Part shown: positions 390 to 16,781 of the stretch, one piece after another | How positions within the stretch are numbered: position 1 is the stretch's first letter | Layout: each line of letters starts with the position of its first letter | Origin: Bacteroidota bacterium | Lineage (GTDB): Bacteria > Bacteroidota > Bacteroidia > 2-12-FULL-35-15 | Reading direction: 5' to 3' | Length of the DNA: 64,000 bases | NCBI GenBank assembly: GCA_017303895.1 | Contig: JAFLBF010000016.1 | Span: 1-64,000, forward strand | Position numbers and translations under genes: made by a program | Notes under the pieces: generated by a model | What the model saw: only the letters and a program-made list of their open reading frames with translations | The model's database searches: none | Told to the model about the DNA's origin: nothing

Positions 390-521
390 GCACAACAAAG
401 TGTATATGCCATAAGGGTTTCAGTGGGTATTCAAGCATTGTAGCCCGCTCAAACTTTCGTGTCGGTGGACAGGGAACTACTCCGCAATCCCTTACGGCAC
501 ATACACTCGACCGTTACCGGC
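390..521 (+). repeat. attC-like site 1
   Basis: Ends the erm-bearing cassette and opens cassette 1. The arm around 399-417 (AGTGTATATGCCATAAGGG) pairs with the arm before the exit (CCCTTACGGCACATACACT, 489-507) with two mismatches. The entry end is GCACAAC (390-396) and the exit end GTTACCGGC (513-521). The matching start of the upstream cassette is outside the window. Confidence 0.65.
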
Positions 522-770
522 AACCCTGACCGACCGACCGTGCAGACATCAACCGCCTGACTTCTGACCGACCCAAACCCGACAACCAACCCGACCAACT
601 TTCCGACACGACAGCCGACCCTTCTGTATTTTTATTTTTTCCCACCGCACAAAAAAATTGAAGTTTTAACCCACGCCATTGGCACATTTTGTTTTGCCCC
701 GACACGCAAGCCGACCCTTCGGCAAAACAAAAAGAGCCAAGCCCACCCACCACCCAATAATAGAGGCTTG
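522..770. repeat. Left subterminal module of cassette 1
   Basis: Non-coding and strongly C-rich on the plus strand. It holds two structures. An AT stem-loop has arms 627-640 and 651-667 around the loop CCCACCGCAC. A double-stem hairpin (H1) pairs TTGGC (679-683) with GCCAA (736-740) and TTTTGTTTTGCC (687-698) with GGCAAAACAAAA (721-732), leaving a symmetric internal loop ACA/AGA. Short open frames here are not credible genes. Confidence 0.6.
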
Positions 771-802
771 AAAAGATTATTTTTTACAAAAACAAAAAAA
801 AT

Positions 803-833
803 TTGCACAATCAAAAAACTGTTTCTATATTTG
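803..833 (+). promoter_or_regulatory. Promoter of the tetR-family gene
   Basis: TTG (803-805), 20 bases, then TATATTTG (826-833) matches the Bacteroidota -33/-7 consensus. Transcription would begin near 840, inside the inverted repeat at 836-856, which suits autorepression by the encoded regulator. Confidence 0.65.
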
Positions 834-835
834 CC

Positions 836-856
836 GACCAAAATACGTTTTTAGTC
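836..856 (+). promoter_or_regulatory. Putative TetR operator O1
   Basis: A 21-bp imperfect dyad, GACCAAAATACG followed by TTTTTAGTC, directly follows the -7 box. A 21-bp sequence with the same frame (GACCAAAA-ACG-TAGTC) recurs at 1508-1528 before the pump genes. Confidence 0.6.
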
Positions 857-870
857 AAAAAGTGTAAGTA

Positions 871-1464
871 ATGGAAAAGGACGAAGTTATTGTTCAGGAT
901 ATAATAAATGGAGCTAAAAAGCTAATGCAGCAGTATGGTTTAAAAAAAACCACAATGGAAGATATTGCCAAAGCGGCGGGTAAAAGTAAAAGCACTCTGT
1001 ATTATTATTTTAAAGACAAGGAAGAAATATTTGACAAGGTTATCAATCTTGAAATTGACGAGTTTTTTAATGCAGTAAACACAGCAGTAAATAAACAAAC
1101 AGATGCAATTAGTATGCTTAAAACATACGTTGTAACTAAAATAAAAACATTGAGGGAAAAAATAAACCTATACCGTTTTGCCGTAGAAAACGATTTAGAA
1201 GGAAGAATAAATCAAGAGTTTACAAAACTGCGAAACAGATATGACAACGAAGAAAAAAAGCTAATAAGTTCTATCTTAACGAAAGGTGTTGAAACCAATT
1301 TGTTCAAAAAAGAAATCATACAGGAAACAGATGTTTTAAGTGAACTTTTAGTGAGTTGTATAAGAGGCGTAGAAATGGACATTATTGCACATAACAAAAA
1401 CAAGACATTAGCAGAAAAGGCAGATTTACTTGTTGAAATGCTGATTAAAGGAATGGGTAAATAA
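871..1464 (+). CDS. TetR/AcrR family transcriptional regulator
   Basis: A 197-residue protein with a TetR-type N-terminal helix-turn-helix at about residues 10-55 (TTMEDIAKAAGKSKSTLYYY is the recognition region, followed by FKDKEEIF). The rest is a helical ligand/dimer domain that is variable in this family. It probably represses the downstream RND efflux operon and itself: similar 21-bp candidate operators lie in front of both transcripts (836-856 and 1508-1528). The ligand cannot be read from sequence. A short terminator-like hairpin follows the stop, so the pump genes probably have their own promoter. It is the first gene of large cassette 1. Confidence 0.9.
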   Translation: MEKDEVIVQDIINGAKKLMQQYGLKKTTMEDIAKAAGKSKSTLYYYFKDKEEIFDKVINLEIDEFFNAVNTAVNKQTDAISMLKTYVVTKIKTLREKINLYRFAVENDLEGRINQEFTKLRNRYDNEEKKLISSILTKGVETNLFKKEIIQETDVLSELLVSCIRGVEMDIIAHNKNKTLAEKADLLVEMLIKGMGK

Positions 1465-1469
1465 ATTAA

Positions 1470-1493
1470 AAAGTGCTTTTCGGAGCATTTTTT
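1470..1493 (+). terminator. Weak terminator after tetR gene
   Basis: TGCT and AGCA around a six-base loop are followed by seven T residues. The stem is short, so read-through into the pump operon is likely. Confidence 0.45.
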
Positions 1494-1507
1494 TAGAATT
1501 AAAAACT

Positions 1508-1528
1508 GACCAAAAAACGAAAATAGTC
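1508..1528 (+). promoter_or_regulatory. Putative TetR operator O2
   Basis: The 21-bp sequence begins GACCAAAAAACG and ends TAGTC, then CAAA-type bases follow as in the copy at 836-856. It lies 25 bp before the start of the membrane fusion gene, as expected for an operator that controls the pump operon. Confidence 0.55.
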
Positions 1529-1552
1529 AAATAGTAAAATTAAATAAACAAG

Positions 1553-2584
1553 ATGATGAAACAAGTCAATTATTTAGCAGTAGCGGGAATACTTGTAATA
1601 GCAAGTTGCACCCACAAAGAAAACACATCAACCGCAGAAAGCAATAACGCTTTCAATGTTCAGGTAGAACAGCCGTTAAGTTACAACGGCAACATTCAGT
1701 CGGGTTATTCAGGAGTTGTGGAAGCACAAAAGACAACCGCTTTAAGTTTTGCCACAATGGGAACAATAACGGAAATTTTTGTAGAGGAAGGGCAGGCAGT
1801 AAGTAAAAGACAGTTGTTAGCCAAAGTCAATGCTTCCAATGCTCAAAACGCATATCAGGCGGCTTTGGCAAGCCAGCAACAGGCAGAAGATGCTTACCGG
1901 AGAATGAAACCAATGAAAGAAAATGGCACACTTCCCGAAATAAAATGGGTAGAAGTGGAAACAGGCTTGGCACAGGCAAAAGCAGCCGTAGCCATTACTC
2001 AAAAAGGTATCAGCGATTGTAGCTTGTATGCACCTGCAAGCGGTGTGATTGGCAAGAAAAATGTGCAGCCCGGTATGAATATAGTGCCGACAACAACCGC
2101 TTTGGAATTGCTGAACATACAATCTGTTTACGTTAAAATTCCTGTTTCAGAAAATGAGATAAGCCTGTTTAAAAAAGGCGGAACCGCACAAATCAGTATC
2201 AACGCCATTAATAAAACCGTAACAGGAGCGGTAAAGGAAATTGGTGTATCGGCAGATATTCTCTCACATACTTATCCTGTAAAAATAGAAGTTCAAAATA
2301 CCACAGGCGACATAAAGCCCGGAATGATATGTTCCGTTCAGGTTACAGCACAAGATAACCGTTCAGGAGTATTGGTTTCCAATAAAGCCCTGCAAAAAGA
2401 CGTAAACGGCAGTCAGTTCATTTATATTGAAAAAGGCGGACAAACCGAAAAGATACCTGTACAAACCATTGCCCTGATTGACAACAAAGTTTTGATACAA
2501 GGCGAAGTACCGCAAAACGCAAACATCATCATTTCAGGACAGCAAAAATTAAACAACGGTACACCTGTTAAAATCATTCAGTAA
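1553..2584 (+). CDS. Efflux RND transporter periplasmic adaptor (membrane fusion lipoprotein)
   Basis: A 343-residue HlyD/AcrA-type adaptor that links the inner-membrane RND pump to the outer-membrane channel. A lipoprotein signal ends in IAS-C19, so the mature protein should be lipid-anchored. The biotinyl-lipoyl-like part is visible around residues 60-90 (ATMGTITEIFVEEGQAVSK) and again after a short helical hairpin of about 60 residues (YAPASGVIGKKNVQPGMNI). The barrel and membrane-proximal domains follow. Two ATG codons stand at the start; either may be used. The gene opens a tightly packed operon: the RND gene begins two bases after this stop. Confidence 0.93.
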   Translation: MMKQVNYLAVAGILVIASCTHKENTSTAESNNAFNVQVEQPLSYNGNIQSGYSGVVEAQKTTALSFATMGTITEIFVEEGQAVSKRQLLAKVNASNAQNAYQAALASQQQAEDAYRRMKPMKENGTLPEIKWVEVETGLAQAKAAVAITQKGISDCSLYAPASGVIGKKNVQPGMNIVPTTTALELLNIQSVYVKIPVSENEISLFKKGGTAQISINAINKTVTGAVKEIGVSADILSHTYPVKIEVQNTTGDIKPGMICSVQVTAQDNRSGVLVSNKALQKDVNGSQFIYIEKGGQTEKIPVQTIALIDNKVLIQGEVPQNANIIISGQQKLNNGTPVKIIQ

Positions 2585-2586
2585 TT

Positions 2587-5500
2587 ATGACAAAAAAGAA
2601 TTTCAATATCATAGAATTGGCTATGAAGCATAAGCAGATAGCCATCATCATTACATCTATATTCGTGCTGTTTGGCGTGTTCTCACTGATAGTAATGCCG
2701 AGAAACGAATTTCCCGAATTTACTATTCGTCAGGGACTAATTGTAGGTGTTTATCCCGGTGCTAATTCCGAACAGGTAGAAGAACAATTAGCCACCAAAG
2801 TAGAAAGTTTTTTGTATGGCTTTGAAGAAGTAAACAGGGAAAAAACCTATTCTATTTCCAAAGAAGGAATGTTGATTGTATTTGTAGAAGTCAATACCAA
2901 TGTAAAAGACCCTGATGCTTTTTGGGATAAAATAAAATTCGGGTTAAGCGACCTCAAAATGCAGTTGCCACCGCAGGTTTTAGCACTGATAGCCAACAAT
3001 GATTTTGGCAACACATCAGCCATTTTGCTCACGGTGCAATCCGATAGTAAAACCTATAAGGAACTTGACCGTGAATTAAAAGTTATTGAAACCGAATTAC
3101 GAAAAATAAAGGCGGTTTCAAAAGTCAAACACTTTGGCTTAACACAAGAGCAAATTACCATTTATCCCGATAACGATAAGTTGGCTTATTACGGAGTAAA
3201 ACCAATGAGCGTTTTAGCTGCCGCACAGTTAGAGGGTGCTGTTTATTATGGCGGGGAGTTAGACAATGGCGAACTCATTACCCCGATACACATTCCCGCT
3301 ACTTACAATACGGAAGAAGATATTAAAAACCAAATCGTATATACCGACCCCACAGGAAATGTTATCCGTGTAAAAGACATAGCCCGTGTAGTAAGGGAAT
3401 ATCCAAAACCTGACGCTTACATTAAAAACAACGGTACAAACAGCCTGTTGATTTCGTTGGAAATGCAACCCGGCAACAACATTGTTGCTTTTGGTAAAAC
3501 AGTGGACGAAACATTGCAAACGCTGAAAGGTAAAATTTCGCCTGATGTGCAGGTAGCAAAAATCGCTGATATGCCGAAAGCCGTTGGGCATTCTATTACG
3601 CACTTTTTAAAAGAATTTGCTATTGCCATTTTCGCAGTAATTATTGTTACAATGCTCTTGTTGCCTTTCCGTGTAGCAGCCGTTGCAGGGGCAACCATTC
3701 CGATTTCCATTTTCATTACGATTGGTATTTTATATGCGTTAGGCGTAGAACTGCACACGGTTTCGTTGGCGGGTTTGATTGTAGTGTTAGGTATGGTGGT
3801 GGACAATGCGATTGTGGTATTGGACGGACACATTGAAAAATTAGACCACGGAGAAAATGCGTGGAACGCAGCTTGGAAAAGTGCCCAAGAACTTTTTGTT
3901 CCTGTGTTTTCTGCAACAATGGCAATTATAGCTACCTATATTCCTATGGTGTTTTTTCTTGACGGAATGGTGGGCGACTTTGTAGGTTCATTGCCCATAA
4001 CCATTGGAGTTGCATTGATTACATCGTTGCTAATAGCTTGTTTGCTTGTACCTTATATGAGTTATGTGTTCATCAAAAAGGGAATTAAAAAAGAAGAAGG
4101 TAAAAAGAAGAAAAAATCATTGTTGGATAGTGTACAGGCAGTTTATGACCGTACATTGGAATGGGCTTTCCGTATTCCCAAAACAACTATCCTGACAGGC
4201 GTTGTTTCGGTAGCGTTAGGTATAGCCATTCTTGCCTTAGTGCCACGTCAGTTATTCCCCAAAGTGGATAGAAACCAATTTGCAGTAGAAATATATTTAC
4301 CCGAAGGCAGTACATTAGAACAAACCGCTCTTGTATCTGACAGCTTGGAACAAATGCTGATGAAAGACAAGCGGGTAGTAAATGTAGCGGCATTTGTAGG
4401 TACAAGTTCACCCCGCTTTCATACCACTTATGCCCCGAATTTTCCCTCAAAAAATTATGCTCAGTTAGTTGTCAATACACAAACGGCAGATGATGCCCTT
4501 TCCATATTGAACGAATACGAAACGAAGTACAGAAACTTTTTTCCGAATGCTTATGTGCGAATGAAACAATTAGACCTGTTAAGTACCACCGCACCTATTG
4601 AAGTAAGGATTAGCGGGGATAATATAGACACTATCAAAACATTGGCACAGCAGGTAAAGGCTGTAATGGAAAAGAACGAAAATGTCATTTGGGCAAGAAC
4701 CGATTACCTTAATCCACGACAAGGCGTAAACATTAAGATAAACGATGAAACCGCTAACCGATTGGGACTGACCAAAGGCATAGTAGCTGCATCATTGGCA
4801 ACAGGTTTTTCGGGAATGCCCATTGGCACAATATGGGAGGGCGATTATCCTGTAACCGTAAAATTGGTAAATGAAGCACAACAGAAAAACGGTTTTGATG
4901 ATATAGCCAATCAAAATATAACATCGCCATTAACAGGTGCAACCGTTCCTGTTAGACAAATAGCAACAAGCATAACCAACGATTGGAGCGAAGGGCAAAT
5001 TATCCGCAGAAACGGTACAAGAACAATTACGGTTCGTGCTGATGTAAAACGTGGTGTATTGCCATACAAAGTATTATCTGACTTAAAAACGGACATCAAA
5101 GAATTACACAAGGGCGAACAAATTACGCTGACCTATGGCGGGGAAGAAGAAAGCGAAGTAGAAAACTATATTCCATTAGCCAAAGCCCTGTTTGCAGGTG
5201 TAATGCTGATTTTCTTTATCCTGTTGTTTCAGTTCAAAAAACCAAAATTGGTTTTCTTGGTAATGATGACAATGCCGTTAAGTTTTTTGGGTGCGGCATT
5301 GGGGTTAATCATTACAGGTTATCCGTTTGGTTTAACTTCTTTCTTAGGTATTATGAGCCTTATGGGTATTGTAGTCCGCAATGGAATTATCCTGATTGAT
5401 TATGCCGAAGAACTTAGAAGTAAAAACGGAATGTCGCTTTCCGAAGCAGCCATAGCCGCAGGCAAACGCAGAATGCGACCAATTTTCCTTACATCATTTG

Positions 5501-5658
5501 CGGCTGCCGTTGGCGTTGTGCCGATGATACTAAGCGGCTCTACCCTTTGGGGACCGCTTGGGGCGGTAGTGTGTTTCGGGTTATTGGTATCAATGATACT
5601 CACACTGTATATGATACCTGTAATGTACAATCAATTATTAAAAAAGAATTACGCTTAA
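2587..5658 (+). CDS. RND efflux transporter, AcrB/HAE1-like
   Basis: A 1023-residue inner-membrane proton-driven exporter of the ACR_tran family. The first membrane helix is near residues 17-37, a large periplasmic loop follows, helices 2-6 start near residue 340, and a second similar half ends near 1015. The family proton-relay motif in helix 4 reads GMVVDNAIVV: Asp406 is present, but the second acid of the classical DD pair is Asn407, a variant I believe occurs in other Bacteroidota pumps. Length is normal. It lies between its adaptor and its channel gene, so the three should form a tripartite pump. The substrate is not predictable; in this cassette it would plausibly be a drug or toxic compound. 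Confidence 0.95.
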   Translation: MTKKNFNIIELAMKHKQIAIIITSIFVLFGVFSLIVMPRNEFPEFTIRQGLIVGVYPGANSEQVEEQLATKVESFLYGFEEVNREKTYSISKEGMLIVFVEVNTNVKDPDAFWDKIKFGLSDLKMQLPPQVLALIANNDFGNTSAILLTVQSDSKTYKELDRELKVIETELRKIKAVSKVKHFGLTQEQITIYPDNDKLAYYGVKPMSVLAAAQLEGAVYYGGELDNGELITPIHIPATYNTEEDIKNQIVYTDPTGNVIRVKDIARVVREYPKPDAYIKNNGTNSLLISLEMQPGNNIVAFGKTVDETLQTLKGKISPDVQVAKIADMPKAVGHSITHFLKEFAIAIFAVIIVTMLLLPFRVAAVAGATIPISIFITIGILYALGVELHTVSLAGLIVVLGMVVDNAIVVLDGHIEKLDHGENAWNAAWKSAQELFVPVFSATMAIIATYIPMVFFLDGMVGDFVGSLPITIGVALITSLLIACLLVPYMSYVFIKKGIKKEEGKKKKKSLLDSVQAVYDRTLEWAFRIPKTTILTGVVSVALGIAILALVPRQLFPKVDRNQFAVEIYLPEGSTLEQTALVSDSLEQMLMKDKRVVNVAAFVGTSSPRFHTTYAPNFPSKNYAQLVVNTQTADDALSILNEYETKYRNFFPNAYVRMKQLDLLSTTAPIEVRISGDNIDTIKTLAQQVKAVMEKNENVIWARTDYLNPRQGVNIKINDETANRLGLTKGIVAASLATGFSGMPIGTIWEGDYPVTVKLVNEAQQKNGFDDIANQNITSPLTGATVPVRQIATSITNDWSEGQIIRRNGTRTITVRADVKRGVLPYKVLSDLKTDIKELHKGEQITLTYGGEEESEVENYIPLAKALFAGVMLIFFILLFQFKKPKLVFLVMMTMPLSFLGAALGLIITGYPFGLTSFLGIMSLMGIVVRNGIILIDYAEELRSKNGMSLSEAAIAAGKRRMRPIFLTSFAAAVGVVPMILSGSTLWGPLGAVVCFGLLVSMILTLYMIPVMYNQLLKKNYA

Positions 5659-5668
5659 AAATTAAGAA

Positions 5669-7018
5669 ATGAAAAAAATAATGATAGTCGCAGTTGCCTT
5701 GATTACATCGGCAACAGCATACAGCCAAACAACATTAACGTTGGAGCAAAGTAAATCGCTTGCATTGAAGAACAACAAAGCATTACAAAACAGTGCTTTG
5801 GAAATAGAAGCAGCACAGCAGGTAAAGAAAAATGCTTACACCAACTATTTCCCGAAAGTAAGTGCCAATGTCTTTGGTATGCAGGCAATCAATCCGCTGA
5901 TTGAATACAAAATGGAAGGTGGAAACTTACCTGTATATGACGGCAATCCTGCCAACCTGCCCACAGCTACACAGTTTGCCTATTTCCCCGGAATGGAATT
6001 AAGTATGTTTCAACGTTCGGCAATAGGAGTGCTGAATATAGCACAACCCATTTATGCAGGTGGGAAAATAAGCACAGGCAACAAATTGGCACAGCTTAAT
6101 GTAGATGTGAAAGAAAAGCAGCAACAGCTAACCGAAAATGAAATATTGCTTAAAACCGAACAACAGTATTGGCAGTTAATTTCCTTACAGGAAAAACAAA
6201 AGACACTTGAAAAATATGAGCTGTTATTAGGCGGTATCCGCAAGCAAGTTGATGATGCTTTTAAGGCAGGTTTGATAATCAAAAATGATGTACTGAAAGT
6301 TCAAATCAAACAAAGCGAATTGGAAGCCAATAAAAATAAATTGCTGAACGGAAAGAAATTAGCGACAATGCAATTCTGCCAAACCATAGGAATACCTTTT
6401 GACAGTACATTGGTATTGCAGGAAACGATTGATATAAGCCAAAGTCCGTTGGCATATTACACCGACCATTCCCCCGCTTTAACCAACCGTACAGAATACA
6501 AATTGTTGGAAAAATCTGTTGAAGCCACACGATTGCAAACAAAGATGAAAACAGGCGATTACTTGCCTACGGTTGCCGTTGGATTGGCAGGCTATCATCT
6601 TAATATGTTAGAAAAAGGAACAAAGAACTTTACTAACGGATTGGCTTATGTTTCGGTATCAATTCCTATTTCCGACTGGTGGGGCGGTTCGTACAGCATC
6701 AAAGAACAAAAAATAAAACAACAAATTGCTGAAAACACATTTGAGGACACAAAGGGTTTGCTCAATCTGCAAATGGAAAAGGCTTGGACAGACGTAAACG
6801 AAGCGTGGAAGCAAATAGCCATTATGAAAGAAACCACCATACAAGCCGAAGAAAATCTGAAAGTAAGTCAAACAGGCTATGAAAGCGGTGTAGTAACCTT
6901 ATCCGATTTATTGGAAGCACAGGCATTAGTTACTGAAACAGCCGATAAATTGACAGAAGCACAAACGCAATACAAGTTAGCGGTTACTACTTATTTGCAG
7001 GTAACAGGAAGAAAGTAA
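5669..7018 (+). CDS. TolC-family outer membrane efflux protein
   Basis: A 449-residue outer-membrane channel protein. The signal peptide is about 20 residues (cleavage near TAYSQ). Two repeats of the long alpha-helical hairpin typical of TolC can be followed (about 25-240 and 270-445), including the LSDLLEAQALVTETADKLTE segment near the C-terminus. It completes the tripartite pump with the two genes before it. A 59-bp segment of this gene (6788-6846) is repeated with three mismatches at 7902-7960, just past the next gene, which points to past recombination in the operon. Confidence 0.94.
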   Translation: MKKIMIVAVALITSATAYSQTTLTLEQSKSLALKNNKALQNSALEIEAAQQVKKNAYTNYFPKVSANVFGMQAINPLIEYKMEGGNLPVYDGNPANLPTATQFAYFPGMELSMFQRSAIGVLNIAQPIYAGGKISTGNKLAQLNVDVKEKQQQLTENEILLKTEQQYWQLISLQEKQKTLEKYELLLGGIRKQVDDAFKAGLIIKNDVLKVQIKQSELEANKNKLLNGKKLATMQFCQTIGIPFDSTLVLQETIDISQSPLAYYTDHSPALTNRTEYKLLEKSVEATRLQTKMKTGDYLPTVAVGLAGYHLNMLEKGTKNFTNGLAYVSVSIPISDWWGGSYSIKEQKIKQQIAENTFEDTKGLLNLQMEKAWTDVNEAWKQIAIMKETTIQAEENLKVSQTGYESGVVTLSDLLEAQALVTETADKLTEAQTQYKLAVTTYLQVTGRK

Positions 7019-7029
7019 AAAATTACCCT

Positions 7030-7911
7030 ATGGATTTGAGTTTAAAAATTGACATCGTTGAAGATATAAGTACTGAGGATTTTAAACAAAATTATTTCAT
7101 TCCTCAAAAACCTTTGCTTATCAACGGTGGCATTATCAAGAAAACAGAAGCGTACCGCAAATGGTCTATTGATTTTTTCAAAAAAGAAATGGGCAACATT
7201 GAAGTTGATATTTACGATAACGCTGTTATCAAATCAAAAACAACGGCTCTTACAAGTGGCGATTTAAAAATGAAGTTTGCCGATTTCTTAAACATCGTTG
7301 AAAAAAATGAGCCGACAACTTTGAGAATGTTTTTGTTTAACGGCTTTAAATATAAACCCGAATTAAGAAAAGATTTTCCTAAACCAAAAATCTTTTCGGG
7401 TTTACTCAATATGGGATTTTTGTTTTTTGGAGGTAATTCAACTTCGGTTCGTATGCACTTTGACATTGATTATTCCAACGTGTTGATGACACAAGTGAAA
7501 GGTCGTAAAAAAGTGATTTTGATTTCACCGAAGTATAATCGTTTCATTTACAAATTACCGTATAACAGTTTTTCGTTAGTAGATTTTGACAACATTGATT
7601 ACAAAAAACATCCTGCTTTAAAAAATATCAAAGGCTATGAATTTGTAATGGACGAGGGTGATAGTTTGTTTATGCCCTCTGCTTATTGGCATTTCAATGT
7701 TTATATAGACGGAGGTTATGCGCTTTCTTATCGCAAAACAGCACATAGTTTAAAAGATAAATACAACGGTTTTATGAACGTAACCTTTCGTTTACTCTTA
7801 GATAAATTGATGACTGCCGTAGCTAAAAACAAATGGACACAGTATAAAATCAATCAGGCAATAAAAACTGCCGAAAAGACTTTAATAATTGATTTCCCTG
7901 AACAGATGTAA
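7030..7911 (+). CDS. JmjC/cupin_8-like 2-oxoglutarate/Fe(II) oxygenase
   Basis: A 293-residue protein that fits the cupin-like JmjC hydroxylase group. The facial triad is visible as H143-F-D145 (SVRMHFDIDYSNVL) and H221 (SAYWHFNVY), in beta-strand settings typical of the double-stranded beta-helix, with a lysine-rich VKGRKKVILISP strand after the first pair. Members hydroxylate protein or small-molecule substrates using 2-oxoglutarate; the substrate here is unknown. It starts 12 bases after the channel gene and is probably co-transcribed, an unusual partner for an RND pump. Its stop codon lies inside a duplicated piece of the channel gene (7902-7960), so the original C-terminus may have been replaced. 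Confidence 0.72.
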   Translation: MDLSLKIDIVEDISTEDFKQNYFIPQKPLLINGGIIKKTEAYRKWSIDFFKKEMGNIEVDIYDNAVIKSKTTALTSGDLKMKFADFLNIVEKNEPTTLRMFLFNGFKYKPELRKDFPKPKIFSGLLNMGFLFFGGNSTSVRMHFDIDYSNVLMTQVKGRKKVILISPKYNRFIYKLPYNSFSLVDFDNIDYKKHPALKNIKGYEFVMDEGDSLFMPSAYWHFNVYIDGGYALSYRKTAHSLKDKYNGFMNVTFRLLLDKLMTAVAKNKWTQYKINQAIKTAEKTLIIDFPEQM

Positions 7912-7960
7912 ACGAAGCGTGGAAGCAAATAGCCATTATGAAAGAAACCACTTTACAAGC
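7902..7960 (+). repeat. Displaced duplicate of a tolC-like gene fragment
   Basis: These 59 bases match 6788-6846 in the channel gene at 56 positions. The copy lies out of coding context; it supplies the last two codons and the stop (TAA) of the cupin-like gene and part of the following spacer. It is the footprint of a duplication, insertion or gene swap next to the pump operon. Confidence 0.85.
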
Positions 7961-8013
7961 AAATCATCATTAAAAAGCCGAATAATAATTATTAACATTT
8001 AAAAACAAAAACA

Positions 8014-8760: not shown

Positions 8761-8764
8761 AAAG

Positions 8765-8989: not shown

Positions 8990-9204
8990 AGACAGACAGC
9001 AACCGCACAGGGTCAAGCACTTATGCAAGTCCCGCAAAAGCCCGCCCGCAGACCAAAACTTGCATAAGAGCTTGTCCCTTTTCCGCCCGACCAAAAACTT
9101 CAATTTTTTTCTTCCACGCTTCTAAAAAATAAAAATACCCAACCCGCACCGACCGACACGACAACCCCGACAATACAGGACAGACCACGAAAGACAGAAG
9201 GGCA
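8990..9204. repeat. Right subterminal module of cassette 1
   Basis: Non-coding and C-rich. It mirrors the left module: first a double-stem hairpin H2 (CAAGC 9014-9018 with GCTTG 9070-9074; TTATGCAAGT 9021-9030 with ACTTGCATAA 9058-9067; internal loop AC/GA), then AT arms 9094-9110 and 9124-9137 around the loop CTTCCACGCTTCT. The arms are exact reverse complements of those at 651-667 and 627-640, whereas the loops stay C-rich on the same strand. Confidence 0.6.
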
Positions 9205-9340
9205 GCCGGTAACAGCGGTTTGGCGTAATGGGGGCGGACGTTCTCCGTATGAAAATTTGTGCTAAATTTGAACTGTGTGCTTCGTATCAAGTGTTGTGCT
9301 GAAAAGCCCCCACTACGCCAAGCCGCAAAACGTTATAAGC
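9205..9340 (+). repeat. attC-like site 2
   Basis: Entry GCCGGTAAC (9205-9213), exit GTTATAAGC (9332-9340). The stem AGCGGTTTGGCGTA plus TGGGGGC pairs with GCCCCCACTACGCCAAGCCGC before the exit, with small bulges. The loop contains GTGCTTCGTATCAAGTG, similar to a part of site 6. Confidence 0.68.
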
Positions 9341-9600
9341 AAGGCGGACTGACATCTTCCAAAGACAATTTATCGGTAGACAAAAACATTTCGGTTCCAA
9401 AAAAAATTGGCTGACTTTCCGACACTCGGGCGACCGCTCGACCCCAACACGAGAAGTTTAAATTTTTACCCCACCGCACCTTCGGCAAAGCCGTTTTGGC
9501 TATCACACATTGCAGCACTTTTGCAAACCCACACAAGCCACCGCACAACCAAAGGCTCGCAAAAAAGCTGCAATCCTCTGCCCGCTCTATCATAATAATA
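9341..9600. repeat. Left subterminal module of cassette 2
   Basis: Non-coding and C-rich. It has AT arm 9455-9469 and hairpin H3: ATTGCAGC (9509-9516) with GCTGCAAT (9567-9574) and TTTTGC (9519-9524) with GCAAAA (9559-9564), internal loop AC/AA, and a terminal loop with CCACCGCACAACCAAA. Overlapping open frames here have the composition of shadow frames. Confidence 0.58.
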
Positions 9601-9701
9601 ATTTTAACATATTGGTATTCAAAAGCTGACAGTATAATTAATTTTACTAACTTAGTTTCGTTAATAACTCATTGTTTAATCTATTTTAAAACCAAATTAC
9701 T

Positions 9702-10454
9702 ATGGAAAATTCAAACTGCTTCCCAGGATCTCGTTACCCTCAATGGCCTTTCCCTTGGCCGTTTCCATTCCCTTTTCCTTTTCCCGACCCTTTTCCTCCT
9801 TATCTTAACACGATTACCTCAAGCTTTGGGAGTATTCACAACGAACTTTTAGATGGTTATGCTGTGGCATTCCCAGCGTTAAACGGTTCTCATCCCGAAA
9901 TCTGGAATTTTATGACGACAGGAACCACTCGCCTAACTGCTCAAGAAGGAATAACTGGAGGAAAACTTATCTCATTTAAGGCTGCTAACGATCACGCTGT
10001 AAACATTAAGGCAAGCCTCAATAATTATTTAAGAGAGCTTGTTAAGGATGGCGAAATGACACCGTTTATTGCCGATCAGACAAACATTATGCTTGCTATT
10101 ATAAAAGATATTGCTGATGGTACTGATATTTCTTTCCGACTAACAGCTTATGCCAATCGTATTGCTCTTAAGACTGACATATCAGCCGAAGACAAAATGA
10201 CTCTAATGGGTGGAGCTCAAGTGGGAATATATTCAGGTAATTTTTGGGATTACGCTTTAAAAACTGCATCAAGCCCTTATCATCAAATAGCGGTTGATTT
10301 AAATGCGGGAGGTAATCTATTCAAAATAAAGTGGGCTGATTTAATTGGTTTTGTTGTTGGCGCAGTAGCCGGTTCAGGGGGCGGACCCGTGGGTTCTGTT
10401 ACAACAGGAATTGCTTTAGGTGGATTTGCATCAGAAGTTTTTGGAGAAAAGTAA
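9702..10454 (+). CDS. Hypothetical protein with Pro/Phe-repeat N-terminus and Gly-rich hydrophobic C-terminus
   Basis: A 250-residue protein. Residues 13-33 are an unusual run of Phe-Pro units with Trp and Tyr (WPFPWPFPFPFPFPDPF). The centre (40-190) is a mixed helical region. The end (about 212-245) is hydrophobic and Gly/Ala-rich (FVVGAVAGSGGG, TTGIALGGFASEVFG), like a glycine-zipper membrane hairpin or a bacteriocin-like segment. No signal peptide is clear. A competing frame at 9496-9852 overlaps it but lacks coding character. Function is unknown. The Gly-rich tail suggests membrane insertion, and the neighbouring phosphatase might regulate it; both are inferences. Confidence 0.7.
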   Translation: MENSNCFPGSRYPQWPFPWPFPFPFPFPDPFPPYLNTITSSFGSIHNELLDGYAVAFPALNGSHPEIWNFMTTGTTRLTAQEGITGGKLISFKAANDHAVNIKASLNNYLRELVKDGEMTPFIADQTNIMLAIIKDIADGTDISFRLTAYANRIALKTDISAEDKMTLMGGAQVGIYSGNFWDYALKTASSPYHQIAVDLNAGGNLFKIKWADLIGFVVGAVAGSGGGPVGSVTTGIALGGFASEVFGEK

Positions 10455-10473
10455 AAACGCTTATGAGTCTGAA

Positions 10474-10505
10474 ATACACGCGATAGCTTACGCTATCGCG
10501 TGTAT
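10474..10505. terminator. Strong perfect hairpin between genes
   Basis: ATACACGCGATAGC pairs perfectly with GCTATCGCGTGTAT around the loop TTAC. There is no T tract directly after it, so it could be a transcript-end or RNA-stability structure, or a protein-binding palindrome, rather than a simple terminator. Confidence 0.5.
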
Positions 10506-10551
10506 TGGTATTTCATTAATATTCTAATGATCGCAAACTATTTCTCAACCA

Positions 10552-12672
10552 ATGCTACTTTCAAAAAAATCAATATATTATTTTGTACTCCTATTTACAT
10601 GCAATGTCCTTTCCTATGGCCAAACTTTTAAAAACGATTCTCTTTGGCACATATATAATACAAAGAGCATACATGACACCATACGATTGGATGCTTTACA
10701 TAATATCACTTGGAATATTATGTATTCTAATCCTGATTCTGCCAATAAAATTGCATTAAAACAATTAAATCATGCCCAACAAAAAGGACTTCAATATTGG
10801 GAAGCAGATGCATTAAAAACAATCGGGAATTACTATAGCATTGTCGGTGAACCGCAAAAAGCGTTGGAAAAATATTTTCTATCGCTCGATATTTTTAAAC
10901 AATTAAATAATACTTCTGGTATTGCGAGTGTTTTTTCGTCAATTGGATATGCTTATAGCGACTTATCCAATTATCCTCAATCACTTGATTTTTTTTTCAA
11001 AGCAGCGAAAATAAATGAATTCAACAATAACATTAATAAGAACGCTGGAATATATATTGGCATTGCTAATGTATATGTGCAATTAGAGGATTACAACAAA
11101 GCATTAAACTTTTATAACAAAGCCATGAAAATTGGCGAAATATCAAATAACAAAGATGTACAAGGGGTTTGTCTTGCTAATATTGGTTCTGTTTACAATA
11201 AAACTGGTAATCAAGCTCTCGCAATAGAATATTTTTCTAAAAGTCTGGCATTGAATAAAAAAAGCGGCAATAAAAAATCAGAGGCTACAAACATTTATAA
11301 TATCGGTGAAGCTTATTTTAATAATGGAGAATTTGAAACCTCTCTTAGTTATTTTATTGAATCTGCCAAGGTAAGGGAAGAATTGAGGGATATTAATGGG
11401 CTCACTGCAAATTATCTTTATATCGGCTTAATTTTCACTAAGACTAATAAATATAAAGATGCGGAGAAATATCTACAGAAAAGTTTAGAACTGGCTAATG
11501 ATATTGGAGATTTAGAGAGGATAAATGAAACTCATTTTTATCTTTCAGAACTTTATAACATTGTTGGAAAATCTGCCTTGTCATTAGAACACTATAAACA
11601 ATACATAGTATACAGGGACAGCGTGCATAATAGCGAAAACATTAAAAAGCTTGCATATACTGAAATCCAATATGAGTTTGATAAAAAAGAGATGATAGCT
11701 AAAGCCGAGCAGGAAAAAAAAGACGCTGTTGCCCTTAAGGAAAAACAACAGCAACAAGTTATAGTATATATCACAAGTGGTGGTTTACTGATATTTTTAT
11801 TGTTGGCAGTTTTTATTTACAAGGGATATTCTCAAAAGAAAAAATTAAGTTTAAATCTTGCATATAAAAATCAGGAAATTACCGACAGTATTAATTATGC
11901 AAAAAGAATACAAGAAGCAATTTTACCAACAGAGGATGAATTCAAAACCGCTTTCCCTGATTCATTTATTTTATTTAAACCAAAAGATATTGTGAGTGGC
12001 GATTTTTATTGGATTGGTACAAACCCAAAAGAATTTCCTTCAATAGACAAAGAGCGCGTTAGTAATGGATGGAGAGTTAAAAATCCTTTGGTAGCAGCTG
12101 TTGATTGCACTGGGCACGGTGTTCCTGGTTCTTTAATGAGCATGATGGGAAATTCGCTTTTGAATAAAATCGTTGACACCCATAAAATTTCTAGTCCAAA
12201 TGAAATTCTTAATTTGTTGAGAACCGAAATTATAAACTCCTTAAAACAACATGGCGAGAAAGAAAATAAAGACGGAATGGATATTGCCTTATGTACCGTT
12301 TATGATGACAGAATAGAATATGCAGGGGCAAACAATCCAATTTACGTTATTCGGAAAAATGGTAATTTGGAAGAGATCAAAGCGGATAAAATGCCTGTCG
12401 GCTATTCTGGAATTCAATTGAAACCTTATACCAATCATTCTGTAAAAATGGAACGAGGCGATAGTTTTTATATTTTTACCGATGGATATGCCGACCAGTT
12501 TGGTGGGAAGGACAATAAAAAATTTAAGTACAAGCAGTTTAAAGATTTGCTTGTTACAATTAATTCCAAATCCATGCAAAGTCAAAAGGAAATACTAAAT
12601 GAAACGATAGAAAACTGGAAAGGAACAAATGAACAAACAGATGATATACTGGTTATCGGAATCCGGATTTAA
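10552..12672 (+). CDS. TPR-repeat sensor with SpoIIE/PP2C-type serine phosphatase domain
   Basis: A 706-residue protein. A signal peptide (about 1-23, ending SYGQ) leads to six or more TPR units in the periplasm (about 35-370), then one membrane helix (403-424), a short coiled coil, and a cytoplasmic SpoIIE-like phosphatase. PP2C metal residues are visible: D484 in DIVSGDFYW, D518 in AVDCTGHGVPGS, D644 in FTDGYADQ and D697/D698 in EQTDDILV. Such enzymes dephosphorylate anti-sigma-factor antagonists or similar partners; no kinase or antagonist gene is nearby. The domain order is common in Bacteroidota. It lies in cassette 2 between a repeat protein and a beta-barrel. Confidence 0.88.
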   Translation: MLLSKKSIYYFVLLFTCNVLSYGQTFKNDSLWHIYNTKSIHDTIRLDALHNITWNIMYSNPDSANKIALKQLNHAQQKGLQYWEADALKTIGNYYSIVGEPQKALEKYFLSLDIFKQLNNTSGIASVFSSIGYAYSDLSNYPQSLDFFFKAAKINEFNNNINKNAGIYIGIANVYVQLEDYNKALNFYNKAMKIGEISNNKDVQGVCLANIGSVYNKTGNQALAIEYFSKSLALNKKSGNKKSEATNIYNIGEAYFNNGEFETSLSYFIESAKVREELRDINGLTANYLYIGLIFTKTNKYKDAEKYLQKSLELANDIGDLERINETHFYLSELYNIVGKSALSLEHYKQYIVYRDSVHNSENIKKLAYTEIQYEFDKKEMIAKAEQEKKDAVALKEKQQQQVIVYITSGGLLIFLLLAVFIYKGYSQKKKLSLNLAYKNQEITDSINYAKRIQEAILPTEDEFKTAFPDSFILFKPKDIVSGDFYWIGTNPKEFPSIDKERVSNGWRVKNPLVAAVDCTGHGVPGSLMSMMGNSLLNKIVDTHKISSPNEILNLLRTEIINSLKQHGEKENKDGMDIALCTVYDDRIEYAGANNPIYVIRKNGNLEEIKADKMPVGYSGIQLKPYTNHSVKMERGDSFYIFTDGYADQFGGKDNKKFKYKQFKDLLVTINSKSMQSQKEILNETIENWKGTNEQTDDILVIGIRI

Positions 12673-12703
12673 AAATACTTTTCTTTAATTAAAACTTTGT
12701 AAT

Positions 12704-13393
12704 ATGAAAACATTTTATTTAACAACAGTAATGTTATTGGTTGGGCTTTTGTCGTTCGGACAATCTGATTCAACGAAAATAAATAGCAAACAATTTCATA
12801 CATACTATGGACTTCAAGTTCCTGACATTTCTGAACTAAATTCGGTTTTTGGGTTAACGAATTACCCTCAGCTAAATTCAAATAATTTTTCCGTTGGCTT
12901 GGGAATGGTTAAATTTTCACGAAAGAAAATCGTTTTTCAACAAGAACTATTTGTTTATTCCCAATCAAGAAAAAACGATTCTATCACATCCTCAATCAGA
13001 AGCATAAGTTTTGGACAATCGCTGTTTGGTTATTCCTATGTTAATAATAAAAAGTTCCAAATGTATTCCAGCTTTGGTTTAACCTATATGAGTACAACTG
13101 TTAAAGTGATAAAGGAAATATCTTCCTCAACCCAATTTAATCAATATGCTTCGGCTATTGGCAATCATCTTGAAATGACATCAAATAATTTTTTGGCAGA
13201 CATCACTACGCATTTAACCTATTCTATAAAAATGCCCGACACTAAAAATCGTCTTATACTTGGCATCAGAGCGGCTTACTATTTCCCATTTGAAAATTCG
13301 AAATGGACGATGAACAAGACAAAACTTGACAATGGCCCCAATATTAATCCAGGTGGTTATTCATTGAATTTTGTTTTAGGATTTTCATATTAG
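12704..13393 (+). CDS. Predicted outer-membrane beta-barrel protein, unknown function
   Basis: A 229-residue protein. A signal peptide of about 19 residues ends LSFGQ. The remainder alternates aromatic and polar residues in strand-like stretches (FSVGLGMVKFSRKKIVFQQE, YSSFGLTYMSTTV, LILGIRAAYYFPF) and ends NFVLGFSY with the terminal aromatic residue typical of outer-membrane barrels. No family can be named. It begins 31 bases after the phosphatase gene and is probably in the same transcript. Confidence 0.72.
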   Translation: MKTFYLTTVMLLVGLLSFGQSDSTKINSKQFHTYYGLQVPDISELNSVFGLTNYPQLNSNNFSVGLGMVKFSRKKIVFQQELFVYSQSRKNDSITSSIRSISFGQSLFGYSYVNNKKFQMYSSFGLTYMSTTVKVIKEISSSTQFNQYASAIGNHLEMTSNNFLADITTHLTYSIKMPDTKNRLILGIRAAYYFPFENSKWTMNKTKLDNGPNINPGGYSLNFVLGFSY

Positions 13394-13663
13394 CACATAG
13401 ACTTCCAAACCCACAATGGCAAGCACATTTGCATTTCGCACAATCCCACCGCACAACCAAAAAATGCAAAAGAACTTGCCATTCTCCCACCCGCCTGTGT
13501 ATGCGTGACGTGAAAAAAAAGAAAAAAATGCCTTCCCTTCTGTAAAAATTTAAACTGCGACCGCTCAAGCCTCCCACAGCAGACCGAGAAAAATGTTCCA
13601 TAGACAGGCAGGTGCAAATCATATGCTGACATAGCAATAAACAACAGTGGACAAAACCGCCCA
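13394..13663. repeat. Right subterminal module of cassette 2
   Basis: Non-coding and C-rich. Hairpin H4 pairs AATGGCAAG (13415-13423) with CTTGCCATT (13475-13483) and TTTGCATTT (13428-13436) with AAATGCAAA (13462-13470), with internal loop CACA/AGAA and a terminal loop holding CCACCGCACAACCAAA. Arm 13542-13556 pairs with the left-end arm at 9455-9469. Confidence 0.6.
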
Positions 13664-13800
13664 GCTTATAACACGGGGCAATTGCGCAATTTGGCGGACG
13701 CGGGAATATAAAGTTTTGTATCTTTAAACAACCGTTGGTGGGTATAGAGACAGGAAGCTCCGAAAGCCAAACTGCGCAAGCCCCGAAACCGTTACCACCA
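13664..13800 (+). repeat. attC-like site 3
   Basis: Entry GCTTATAAC (13664-13672), exit GTTACCACCA (13791-13800). ACGGGGCAATTGCGC pairs with GCGCAAGCCCCG near the exit. The loop contains GTATCTTTAAACAACC and GTGGGTATAGAGACAGGAAG, a block also found in site 4. Confidence 0.68.
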
Positions 13801-13814
13801 ATTGTTAAGGACGA

Positions 13815-15080
13815 ATGAACAGACATCATAAAAGACAAATACTTTTCGTTCTATTAGCCTTAAGTTTCTTTACGACCTTTTCGCAGACAAATACGTTTCT
13901 GGACAAATTTTCAAAGCTTTTTGACTGCTCTATCATTCCCAAGACAAACGTTAACTTTAAAGAATACTACGAAATAACAGTTCAACAAGCGCTTGACCAT
14001 TCAAATCCCAAAGACAAATTTAATCAACGCATTTACATCGGACTTCAAGACTTTAATGCCCCGACAATAATCGTGACTGACGGTTACGCCATTGACTACG
14101 CTTCTAAATCGGATTATTCAAATGAGTTAGCAAAAGAACTCAAAGCAAACATTGTAGTGGTCGAACACCGTTTTTTCGGTAAATCAGTTCCGGACAGCCT
14201 TAACTGGAATCTTTTGACAATGAAACAATCCGCTGACGATTACCATTTTATAAAATCAATGCTTGACAAAATATTAATCGGCAAATGGCTTTCAACAGGA
14301 ATAAGTAAAGGCGGACAAGCTGCGTTATCTTACAAAATGTTTTATCCAAACGACATTTGCGCTTCGGTTTCGTATGGCGCTGCAATAAAAAGTAAACAAA
14401 CAGTTTTCACGGACACAATTCTTTTAAATTTATCTCAAACCTCTTGCGGTAAAAATATTAACGAACTCCAAAACTATTTATTTAAGCATAAAAATATTTT
14501 ACTCCCCTATTTCGCTGACTTTGCCTCTCAAAAACATTATGACTTTAAACCTCTCGACAACGAAGCCGTATTAGATTATTTATTGCTTGAACTTCCATTT
14601 TCATTTTGGCAGAACGGTAATAAATGCAGCGACATTCCCGACACAACTTATACTCCTGAAAATTTAATGAGTTATTTAATCAAAGTTGTTCCACCTCGTT
14701 TTTTCTCGACAACAAACAAAAAGCAACTTGAATCTGCCTTTTTTATGTTCTACAATGAATTGGGTTATTATGAATACACCATCAAGCCATTTGCGAAATA
14801 CCTTAAACAGAAAGACTACTCAAATAAATATTTCGCCCCTCAAAATACTACCATTCAATACGACAACAGTTTTCATAAAATGGTAAATTCTTTTATAAAT
14901 AGTGATAACTCAAAATGTGTATTCTTCATCTATGGTCAAAACGACCCTTGGGCTTTGCAGACAACAACAAGTAAAAATATTTTCATCGTTCCCGCTGGCA
15001 GTCATAAAAGCAGAATTGCTGATTTCTCGACTGAGCAACAAGCAGACATTTATAATAAAATAAAGACTTGCTTAAAGTAA
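13815..15080 (+). CDS. Secreted serine peptidase, S37 (PS-10) family-like
   Basis: A 421-residue alpha/beta-hydrolase peptidase. The signal peptide is about 1-24 (cleavage near TFSQ). The S37-type features are VVVEHRFFGKS and the nucleophile elbow GISKGGQ with S164; the acid is probably D377 (YGQNDPW) and the base H397 (AGSHKSRI). The family includes bacterial tripeptidyl aminopeptidases that trim N-termini outside the cytoplasm. It is the single gene of a 1.3-kb cassette: the start lies 24 bases after the cassette begins, preceded by AAGGAC as ribosome-binding site. The cassette ends share 15 of 16 complementary bases (13791-13806, 15090-15105). Confidence 0.8.
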   Translation: MNRHHKRQILFVLLALSFFTTFSQTNTFLDKFSKLFDCSIIPKTNVNFKEYYEITVQQALDHSNPKDKFNQRIYIGLQDFNAPTIIVTDGYAIDYASKSDYSNELAKELKANIVVVEHRFFGKSVPDSLNWNLLTMKQSADDYHFIKSMLDKILIGKWLSTGISKGGQAALSYKMFYPNDICASVSYGAAIKSKQTVFTDTILLNLSQTSCGKNINELQNYLFKHKNILLPYFADFASQKHYDFKPLDNEAVLDYLLLELPFSFWQNGNKCSDIPDTTYTPENLMSYLIKVVPPRFFSTTNKKQLESAFFMFYNELGYYEYTIKPFAKYLKQKDYSNKYFAPQNTTIQYDNSFHKMVNSFINSDNSKCVFFIYGQNDPWALQTTTSKNIFIVPAGSHKSRIADFSTEQQADIYNKIKTCLK

Positions 15081-15095
15081 CAGGACATAAACAAC

Positions 15096-15283
15096 TGGTG
15101 GTAACAGCAAATAAACGTAAGCGGGCAGAATCGGTCATCGTTCGCGCGCAAAACAGCGGTCCCTTCGGGAAATTTTATTTGCGGCTCACTAAAAACCTAA
15201 GTATCTTTAAATAACCTTTTGTGGGTATAGACACAGGAAGCTTCGAAAGCCCGCCTACGTCTATTTGCAAAACGTTATGCGGT
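15096..15283 (+). repeat. attC-like site 4
   Basis: Entry TGGTGGTAAC (15096-15105), exit GTTATGCGGT (15274-15283). GCAAATAAACGTAAGCGGGC pairs with GCCCGCCTACGTCTATTTGC with two mismatches. The loop block around 15203-15250 resembles site 3. Confidence 0.7.
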
Positions 15284-15310
15284 ATGTTAGGACTACCCAA
15301 CCATTAAACA

Positions 15311-15508
15311 ATGACACGAACAATAATTGCAATCGGACTTTTAATTTTAGCTGGACTATCTGTGATGTTTTATGCCATTGGCAGTCATGGACGACTTATA
15401 TTTAGACCACATATGACTCAGGATTGGATTATTTGGGGTATTGCAATTATTTCGATAGTGATAAGTATTTTTCTTTTTATTAAACGACCGAACAAAAAAC
15501 AATGTTGA
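15311..15508 (+). CDS. Small two-helix membrane protein
   Basis: A 65-residue protein with two hydrophobic helices (about 4-24 and 38-56) and a basic tail (KRPNKKQC). No family is recognised. It is the first gene of a 0.6-kb cassette, 37 bases after the cassette start, and its stop overlaps the next start (ATGTTGA), so the two products are probably made together. Confidence 0.6.
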   Translation: MTRTIIAIGLLILAGLSVMFYAIGSHGRLIFRPHMTQDWIIWGIAIISIVISIFLFIKRPNKKQC

Positions 15509-15897
15509 AACGTATATTGACAAAAGGATTGTTGGCTAGCGGAATTCAAGTTCTGTTTTATTTTATAGCACTTTACATTTTGTGGTATTCGACTGTTGGT
15601 TTCTTTCGACCCGTCAACAGAGAAATTAGCGAACTTGCAGTTGACATATCAATTCCTCTTTTTGCAATTATGGTTACGGTTCAAAATCTAGCAACGAGCA
15701 TCGTAAATAGAAAATGGCTAACAGTTACCTTGTTTGTATTTACAATGACAATTTATTTAATTGGTTGGGGCGAAGACATTAATAGTTTTCCGTTTTCAGC
15801 GACAATATTTATCATCACCGGAATACTATCCCTATCACTCAAGTTTTACATCGATAAAAAAATTGACAGCTATACAGATAGGAAACACACCGCATAA
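15502..15897 (+). CDS. Small four-helix membrane protein
   Basis: A 131-residue protein with four predicted membrane helices (about 10-32, 46-66, 73-90 and 96-114) and a charged C-terminus. No family is recognised. Its start overlaps the previous stop by seven bases. Its stop codon lies within the cassette end ACCGCATAAC, so coding runs into the recombination site, as often seen in integron cassettes. Confidence 0.6.
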   Translation: MLKRILTKGLLASGIQVLFYFIALYILWYSTVGFFRPVNREISELAVDISIPLFAIMVTVQNLATSIVNRKWLTVTLFVFTMTIYLIGWGEDINSFPFSATIFIITGILSLSLKFYIDKKIDSYTDRKHTA

Positions 15898-16088
15898 CAC
15901 GGGGCAGTTGCGTCAGCGGGCAGAATACAAGTTTTTTGCTTACAAGTTGTGCGCTGACGCGCGATTTTGTATTTTTACTGTAAGCAAAATAAAAAGGCAG
16001 CTTTGGTGAAATTAATTTTGTTGGTTGCGAGTAGACAATGATGATGTTCCTAATTTCCGCCGAACGCAAGCCCCGAAACCGTTAGCGG
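15889..16088 (+). repeat. attC-like site 5
   Basis: Entry ACCGCATAAC (15889-15898), exit GTTAGCGG (16081-16088). ACGGGGCAGTTGCGTCAGCGG pairs with the exit arm CCGCCGAACGCAAGCCCCG with bulges. This site is long and has an extra inner hairpin (TTTTGCTTACA with TGTAAGCAAAA). Confidence 0.68.
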
Positions 16089-16124
16089 TCAGCTTAAAAG
16101 ACGACTGCACAACAGACAAATAAA

Positions 16125-16628
16125 ATGTGGACGATAATAAAAGGCAATTACAAAACTATTTTGACAACAACAGGACTTTTTCTTGTTGGATTTATAGTTG
16201 CGTACTTATTTGAAGACTACTACCGACAACTTGTTAGGTTTTCGTTCAAGTTTTTTAATGGTGACAACATTCTGTTTATTGGCAAGAACTTCCACTTGTT
16301 TGCCAGCTACAGTTTTGTTACTGCATTCGGACTTTTTGTTTCGTTGACATTTTTGTTATTAAAGTTTTCTTCTCGACCTAACAGACTAAAAAGAACCTGC
16401 ATAGCAATTATTTTTTTCTTCGCCACGACAATTTTAGTAACTGCATTTGACAGTATGCGACTAGTGGTTGAATGCACAGCTTGTAATGACGGAATTAGAC
16501 GTTTAACTTTCAATCAACCTACATATGATAAATATTTTATAATTAGTTTGACTATTGCTGTTGCTTACTTGTTGACTACATATTTATTAGAAAGAAAACG
16601 ACTAAGAAAAAGTAATGAAACGATATAG
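16125..16628 (+). CDS. Multi-pass membrane protein of a single-gene cassette
   Basis: A 167-residue protein with four hydrophobic helices (about 12-28, 48-75, 87-105 and 136-155). A short loop with CTACNDG lies between helices three and four. No family is recognised. It is the only gene of a 0.57-kb cassette; its start lies 44 bases after the cassette begins. Confidence 0.6.
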   Translation: MWTIIKGNYKTILTTTGLFLVGFIVAYLFEDYYRQLVRFSFKFFNGDNILFIGKNFHLFASYSFVTAFGLFVSLTFLLLKFSSRPNRLKRTCIAIIFFFATTILVTAFDSMRLVVECTACNDGIRRLTFNQPTYDKYFIISLTIAVAYLLTTYLLERKRLRKSNETI

Positions 16629-16645
16629 AAAGACAGAAAGCCGAA

Positions 16646-16781
16646 CCGCTAACACGGGTTTTGCGTCAGGCGGGGTGGCGTGCAAACTTGGAGCTTTGTG
16701 CTTCTATTCAAGTTCAGTGCAGGTTGACAGTTTTGTGCTCCGAAACCCGCCCGAACGCAAAGCCCGAAACCGTTATATGCC
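16646..16781 (+). repeat. attC-like site 6
   Basis: Entry CCGCTAAC (16646-16653), exit GTTATATGCC (16772-16781). ACGGGTTTTGCGTCAGGCGGG pairs with the arm CCCGCCCGAACGCAAAGCCCG before the exit. The loop has GTGCTTCTATTCAAGTTC, related to site 2. The matching end (GGCATATAAC) of the following cassette is not found downstream. Confidence 0.68.

Follow-up and report, generated by a model that had tools for sequence, protein, structure and literature searches.

An integron-like cassette array in a Bacteroidota genome, most likely served by a tyrosine recombinase without the IntI-specific insertion

Can genes in Bacteroidota be gathered into arrays of swappable cassettes, as integrons gather antibiotic-resistance genes in other bacteria, without a canonical integron integrase? 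This question is raised by the window analysed here, 64,000 nucleotides from the start of contig C8 (JAFLBF010000016.1) in the 3.6-Mb, 32-contig draft genome of a Bacteroidota bacterium (GCA_017303895.1, hereafter G000), in which a sequence-only reading had proposed six attC-like hairpins between accessory genes. Our findings argue, with a probability of roughly 0.88, that the region belongs to a chromosomal array of integron-like cassettes, run most likely by an insertion-free tyrosine recombinase encoded on contig C14 of the same genome, whose enzymology we infer from sequence. A structure scan together with a covariance model (R1) confirms the six sites, which span 393-16775 and bound five complete units:

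393-516, plus strand: S1, diverged attC-like site (CAAC...CGACC GTTA); scan, R1 45 bits, E=1.4e-7
9210-9335, plus strand: S2, attC-like hairpin site; R1 120 bits, E=4.5e-25
13669-13794, plus strand: S3, attC-like hairpin site; R1 73 bits
15102-15277, plus strand: S4, attC-like hairpin site; R1 69.5 bits
15895-16084, plus strand: S5, attC-like hairpin site with a long internal loop; scan score 18.2, R1 36.5 bits, E=1.5e-5
16650-16775, plus strand: S6, last attC-like site; R1 102.5 bits

The stem of S1 is diverged (CAAC, not TAAC), yet it is matched by the covariance model. S1 closes a cassette that is cut off by the contig start, and the DNA 5' of it (6-397) matches a cassette end of another genome (G260) at 81% identity. 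No further site is present 3' of 16772. The units that these sites bound, with open reading frames (ORFs) as cargo, are:

513-9331, plus strand: unit 1 (8.8 kb; 8819 bp), GTTACCGGC...GCCGGTAAC, end complementarity 9 nt; a TetR regulator and a cupin_8/JmjC protein (both from Pfam matches), MFP-, RND- and TolC-like efflux genes (assigned by reading the ORFs) and a 248-aa ORF
9332-13790, plus strand: unit 2 (4.5 kb; 4459 bp), GTTATAAGC...GCTTATAAC, from end complementarity, ORFs and Pfam; a 250-aa ORF, a TPR-SpoIIE phosphatase and a 229-aa beta-barrel-like ORF
13791-15273, plus strand: unit 3 (1.5 kb; 1483 bp), GTTACCACCA...TGGTGGTAAC; an S37/S28-type serine peptidase (Pfam PF05576)
15274-16080, plus strand: unit 4 (0.8 kb; 807 bp), GTTATGCGGT...ACCGCATAAC, from ORFs and end complementarity; two small ORFs, membrane-protein-like as judged from reading the sequence
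16081-16771, plus strand: unit 5 (0.7 kb; 691 bp), GTTAGCGGT...ACCGCTAAC, from ORFs and end complementarity; a 167-aa ORF, likewise judged membrane-protein-like from its sequence

What ties these units to integron behaviour is that the two ends of each are complementary to one another. The co-variation claimed for all five complete units is borne out, with uninterrupted pairing of 9, 9, 10, 10 and 9 bases in units 1 to 5; among 720 possible end-to-start assignments only the true one scores as high, and any other pairing of unit ends in the window reaches six bases at most. The length of 9-16 bases given before holds insofar as it exceeds seven, but the perfect pairs are 9-10, and the rest is an extension which, in four of the five units, follows a 1-2 base interruption and adds 4-5 pairs. 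Likewise, the two ends of any one hairpin differ, as proposed, in their unit-specific bases but have GTTA/TAAC in common, so that they pair over 3-4 bases only (three at S1). Consistent with this, at least four extra complementary bases are present in 31 of 35 units from this and related arrays, whereas the average is 0.73 inside hairpins and 0.66 by chance, and at least nine complementary end bases occur in 80 of the 96 cassettes of a larger set.

All six sites follow one plan. Their 5' half opens with unit-specific bases and TAAC, from which a single unpaired base leads into a stem of some 20 bp and a long variable loop; the 3' half consists of the second stem arm, five unpaired bases and GTTA followed by unit-specific bases. 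Read directly, none of the six R' sequences in the window fits GTTRRRY, so the attC core RYYYAAC/GTTRRRY is absent, and GTTA is the sole constant part of R' in most sites found. As in attC, the imperfect inverted repeat covaries as a structure: when 24 sites drawn from several genomes are compared, 19 of the 21 stem pairs vary on both sides, and the covariation score is 0.467 vs 0.145 for shuffled sequences and 0.06-0.15 with slid partners, a comparison that somewhat favours the structure used since its string was taken from the same sequences. These sites were aligned via the structure scan and a hand-set structure, MAFFT alone having misplaced those with long loops. In place of a constant extrahelical bulge, which is absent, 52 of 55 sites chosen by stem score only, regardless of mismatch, carry an A.C mismatch, which on the bottom strand is a G.T wobble, some 13 bp in from the spacer and across stems of quite different sequence; the three without it are isolated hits outside arrays. 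Departures from pairing on the top strand are more often of A.C type than of G.T type (70 vs 33), which would favour the bottom strand as the one that folds. Shuffled or reversed DNA yields few or no such sites, and Rfam holds no family for them. Two strong short inverted repeats (9009-9079, 91%; 13415-13483, 86%) lie at gene ends within units, separate from the attC-like sites.

If these units are cassettes, they should be found apart and in other company. The array is not confined to the window: further sites lie on contigs C13, C14, C2, C7, C1, C12 and C27, more than 20 in the draft genome, and C13, C14 and C8 end inside array DNA; the contigs probably form a single array. On C14, a platform running from the attI-like point through the recombinase gene is 98.8% identical over 6.4 kb to one in G260, which is labelled as another family of the class:

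5605-11966 of C14 in G000, and 63275-69648 of contig C2 in G260: shared platform

Followed in the direction of the array, the two agree fully up to ...GCGTATAATAAAGAGTTA (the match ending ...AATAAAGAGTTA, the attI GTTA), past which C14 runs on as GTGGCAAG and G260 as CAGGTAAG with no further similarity. The same site family with different cargo, which the sequence-only reading had suggested looking for in other genomes, is thus at hand in two near-identical platforms that diverge exactly from GTTA onward. Their near-identity across families reflects either horizontal transfer of an integron platform or a mis-binned contig. In a related locus of G017, a tRNA pair is found near the other end of the shared platform.

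Single cassettes behave in the same manner. C13 and G233 have in common a 3.2-kb cassette (87%) whose ends, GTTACTGGC and GCCAGTAAC, coincide with the junctions, the neighbours on either side being different: on the left, GAAACC/GTTACTGGC vs TCAGAC/GTTACTGGC, and on the right, GCCAGTAAC plus its site followed by GTTAGCCGC vs GTTATATGC, the cut being at G/TTA on both sides. Another cassette common to C13 and G260 comes after different sites and is joined at the same GTTA, and a 4.6-kb segment common to G017 and G260 ends 1-2 nt from site edges. Some shared segments do end away from any site that the scan found; its threshold misses some of the sites. Together, these exchanges identify the cassettes as mobile modules bounded at G/TT, and they uphold the cassette-array reading against the conditions named beforehand as refuting it, with units that occur apart and with other neighbours and arrays elsewhere that co-vary per unit. 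The unit 3 peptidase gene also occurs without hairpins in G001 and G005, where it sits in other neighbourhoods and homology starts 6-20 nt inside the unit. A SpoIIE gene beside the hairpin-free peptidase gene of G005 was considered as a counter-example and rejected; the SpoIIE protein there is of other architecture, and hence this is not the gene pair of the window. At 9884 of C13 (locus L019) we noted a truncated site (TAACACGGG, then unrelated DNA) where G260 has a complete one; this is a decayed array end.

Within the set of 96 cassettes, in which the A.C mismatch was part of the selection and so is not evidence, 161 ORFs lie along the site orientation and 11 opposite to it, 57 cassettes carry one ORF, the median length is 1.3 kb and cargo is almost never common to different genomes at the protein level. 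The usual cassette combines a folded attC-like recombination site with a single gene, or with a small operon whose genes point the same way. Unit 1, with 8.8 kb, six genes and a whole RND-type efflux operon, is far above that median. It also contains a 62-nt direct repeat (6785-6846 and 7899-7960, 94% identical) within the TolC-like gene and after the cupin_8 gene, a sign that insertion of the cupin gene may have involved partial duplication.

Which enzyme, then, may move these cassettes? The sequence-only reading, which saw no integrase in the window, pointed to flanking DNA for a tyrosine recombinase with an IntI-type insertion; a recombinase there is, on C14, but the insertion is absent from it.

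5774-6847 of C14: tyrosine recombinase, 357 aa, divergent from three minus-strand attC-like sites that run away from the gene

In alignments, all catalytic residues (R-K-H-R-H-Y) are present, and there is no sign of the IntI-specific insertion of about 41 residues near patch III. A phmmer comparison with IntI4 (2a3v) splits into two blocks, leaving IntI4 residues ~214-248 without counterpart, and the spacing from KGxxDR to HxLRH is 58-59 residues vs 100 in IntI1 and the IntI proteins of the phylum. The protein scores below cut-off with the integrase model TIGR02249 (187 bits, cut-off 265) as well as with its best NCBIfam model, XerA NF040815 (190 bits, cut-off 220). An AlphaFold2 model (mean predicted local distance difference test, pLDDT, 81; predicted template-modelling score, pTM, 0.52) has IntI4 (2a3v) as its closest solved structure, followed by XerA. 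In a tree, ten IntI sequences group together as a single clade (support 100/99) with all insertion-free proteins outside; the tree does not settle the deeper order and fits an origin independent of IntI as well as a loss of the insertion. Pfam matches nothing in the N-terminal ~75 residues, which may resemble HARP-type domains. The protein belongs to a family of Bacteroidota recombinases that is related to IntI and XerA; its members lack the IntI insertion and have, at the N-terminus, an additional domain of about 75 residues.

That the C14 protein is most likely the cognate enzyme is suggested by what lies beside its gene. The first unit on C14 begins GTTAGTGGC, 157 nt from the recombinase gene and at an attI-like site before it, and finishes GCCACTAAC. 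The attI start of an array can be predicted from the end of its first cassette; of 15 arrays in which a first site was detectable, 13 had the predicted start (not G017 and Flavobacterium enshiense), 92-1034 nt from the gene and often following a TTGCGtAtA-like sequence. Hence there is an attI beside the recombinase gene, to which the first cassette is joined at G/TT. The arrays of G000, G260, G017 and G075 diverge from the gene, and most others lie downstream of it in the same direction.

In support of this pairing, recombinase and sites go together across genomes. Of 36 congeners 33 have sites, as do 176 of the 247 class genomes; the recombinase profile matches 130 of these 247, of which 120 also have sites, compared with 56 of the 117 others (odds ratio, OR, 13; p=2.5e-15). 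A phylum sample of 345 genomes gives OR 12 (p=5e-22), whereas canonical IntI and these sites give OR 0.59. Of 112 sites listed for recombinase-bearing genomes, 35 are no more than 20 kb away from the recombinase, where about 1.3 are expected. Cultured examples are Flavobacterium enshiense DK69 and a plasmid of Chryseobacterium sp. SNU WT5 (NZ_CP041688.1; L215) that carries a recombinase copy with four R1 sites downstream, meaning that the system can be mobile. A search among named organisms turned up many remote Xer-like proteins that have no arrays beside them, so distant homology alone is no predictor of arrays.

Several points weigh against our reading. The sampled genomes are related and not phylogenetically independent, which makes the p-values too small, so that effect sizes weigh more. 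At the threshold used, the 56 genomes with sites and no recombinase resemble clusters of attC sites lacking integron-integrases (CALINs), and the insertion-free enzyme is therefore not established as the sole one; in the complete genome of G510, sites extend over 30 kb (C1:2621956-2652591) with no match to the insertion-free profile at E<=1e-60, and this genome may use another enzyme. Moreover, the recombinase is without an insertion that is deemed essential for canonical attC recombination (Smyshlyaev et al. 2021, PMC8138268).

Two of the alternatives that we weighed concern the enzyme. Were the region a canonical integron, its IntI would be encoded elsewhere in the genome or lost, the cassettes being left as a CALIN. 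This would suit the site, attI and cassette features, all of which are integron features, and genuine IntI does occur in other classes of the phylum, with some R1-like sites nearby (L303). Yet no IntI above cut-off is found in G000, the matches in the 93 phylum-sample genomes above cut-off include only one of this class (G173), the OR of 0.59 gives no positive link to this site type, none of the six R' sequences fits GTTRRRY and it is the insertion-free recombinase that adjoins arrays and attI, all of which makes a canonical integron highly improbable. Weak R1-like matches in other-class genomes with genuine IntI (L303 in G277, 2840-5505; L301; L296) may link both site types, and canonical attC beside genuine IntI, sought in ten other-class genomes and G173, was clear only in G306 and is a weak control. 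Hardly more probable to our minds is that housekeeping XerC/XerD or some other recombinase moves the cassettes, the insertion-free enzyme being a bystander in a mobile island. While G000 does encode Xer-type proteins separate from the C14 recombinase, and sites occur in genomes without the latter (including G510), such a bystander would sit poorly with recombinase-site adjacency far above chance, with attI-like sites beside its gene in many families and with its integron-like C-terminal SPLD and closest structural match to IntI4.

The remaining alternative does away with recombination and sees the hairpins as transcription terminators or repetitive extragenic palindromic (REP)-like repeats between ordinary operons. 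GC-rich stems at gene ends could indeed also terminate transcription, and no Rfam match decides otherwise; such elements leave unexplained the unit-wise covariation of ends, module swaps exact to G/TTA, attI and the recombinase link, and are contradicted by shared cassettes with exact ends, so that we give this view next to no weight. With attI, structurally covarying sites and mobile cassettes as in integrons, but with a recombinase that has no IntI insertion and lies outside the IntI clade and with no GTTRRRY core, the region is best called integron-like and not a canonical IntI integron.

The sites, the unit-wise covariation, attI, the exact module boundaries and the recombinase link are seen directly in sequence. 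For the cassette array and its C14 recombinase we envisage the following scheme, in which the chemistry, a single-stranded substrate and the identity of the enzyme are inferred. The site of a circular cassette would fold on its bottom strand into a hairpin, closed by an end helix of 9-15 bp that the cassette's own two ends form; the tyrosine recombinase would then cut at G/TTA and join the cassette to the attI-like site beside its gene, and excision would take place between two sites in the array. Once integrated, a site would have one end from each of two cassettes, which would explain the unit-wise covariation, and only four bases could pair outside its stem, which might favour insertion over excision.

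How does this compare with known systems? Like chromosomal integrons and CALINs, as defined for IntegronFinder (PMC9024848), the arrays consist of mostly single-gene cassettes in one orientation with folded sites between them, and they share G/TT insertion, an attI by the recombinase gene, complementary cassette ends and extremely diverse cargo. Unlike in chromosomal integrons, the recombinase is without the IntI-specific insertion and outside the IntI clade; unlike in integron attC, R' is GTTA plus unit-specific bases and not GTTRRRY, the end helix is 9-10 bp with an interrupted extension and not 7, the spacers are 1 and 5 nt, the A.C (bottom G.T) mismatch is at fixed depth and the loop is long and variable. 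XerA, XerC and XerD (NF040815, 4a8e, 5hxy) resemble the C14 protein in their catalytic fold and short loop at the place of the IntI insertion, but differ from it in lacking attI and cassette arrays, the extra N-terminal domain and the IntI-like C-terminus (SPLD). Also close by description, exact membership being uncertain, is the 'integron-like' subgroup of simple tyrosine recombinases, Xer-like two-domain enzymes grouped with integron integrases (PMC8138268); the available part of that paper does not tie arrays to insertion-free members, yet it describes conservation of the insertion across the subgroup as incomplete, the nearest hint in print.

Published surveys credit Bacteroidetes only with In0 elements and a single complete integron, in Salinibacter (PMC9024848), the taxon-specific attC models leave out Bacteroidetes (PMC8352920) and IntI detection depends on the insertion (PMC9668308). 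We found no description of these arrays in the open-access papers searched, subscription papers and preprints being outside the search. The view that such arrays are little described in Bacteroidota agrees with this, even though the arrays themselves are very common there, as the 176 of 247 class genomes attest. We lean towards a second, IntI-independent integron lineage as the main gene-capture system of Bacteroidota, in which a Xer/IntI-like recombinase that has an N-terminal domain but no insertion would read folded sites through longer, cassette-specific end helices and the IntI insertion would be dispensable. If the arrays are what they seem, about 70% of the class genomes sampled would carry a cassette system, with largely unknown cargo, that standard tools are unlikely to report, and it would be common in a phylum thought to be nearly free of integrons. 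An insertion-free recombinase would also make testable what IntI needs for recombining folded single-stranded DNA, and may bear on the origin of integrons from Xer-type enzymes.

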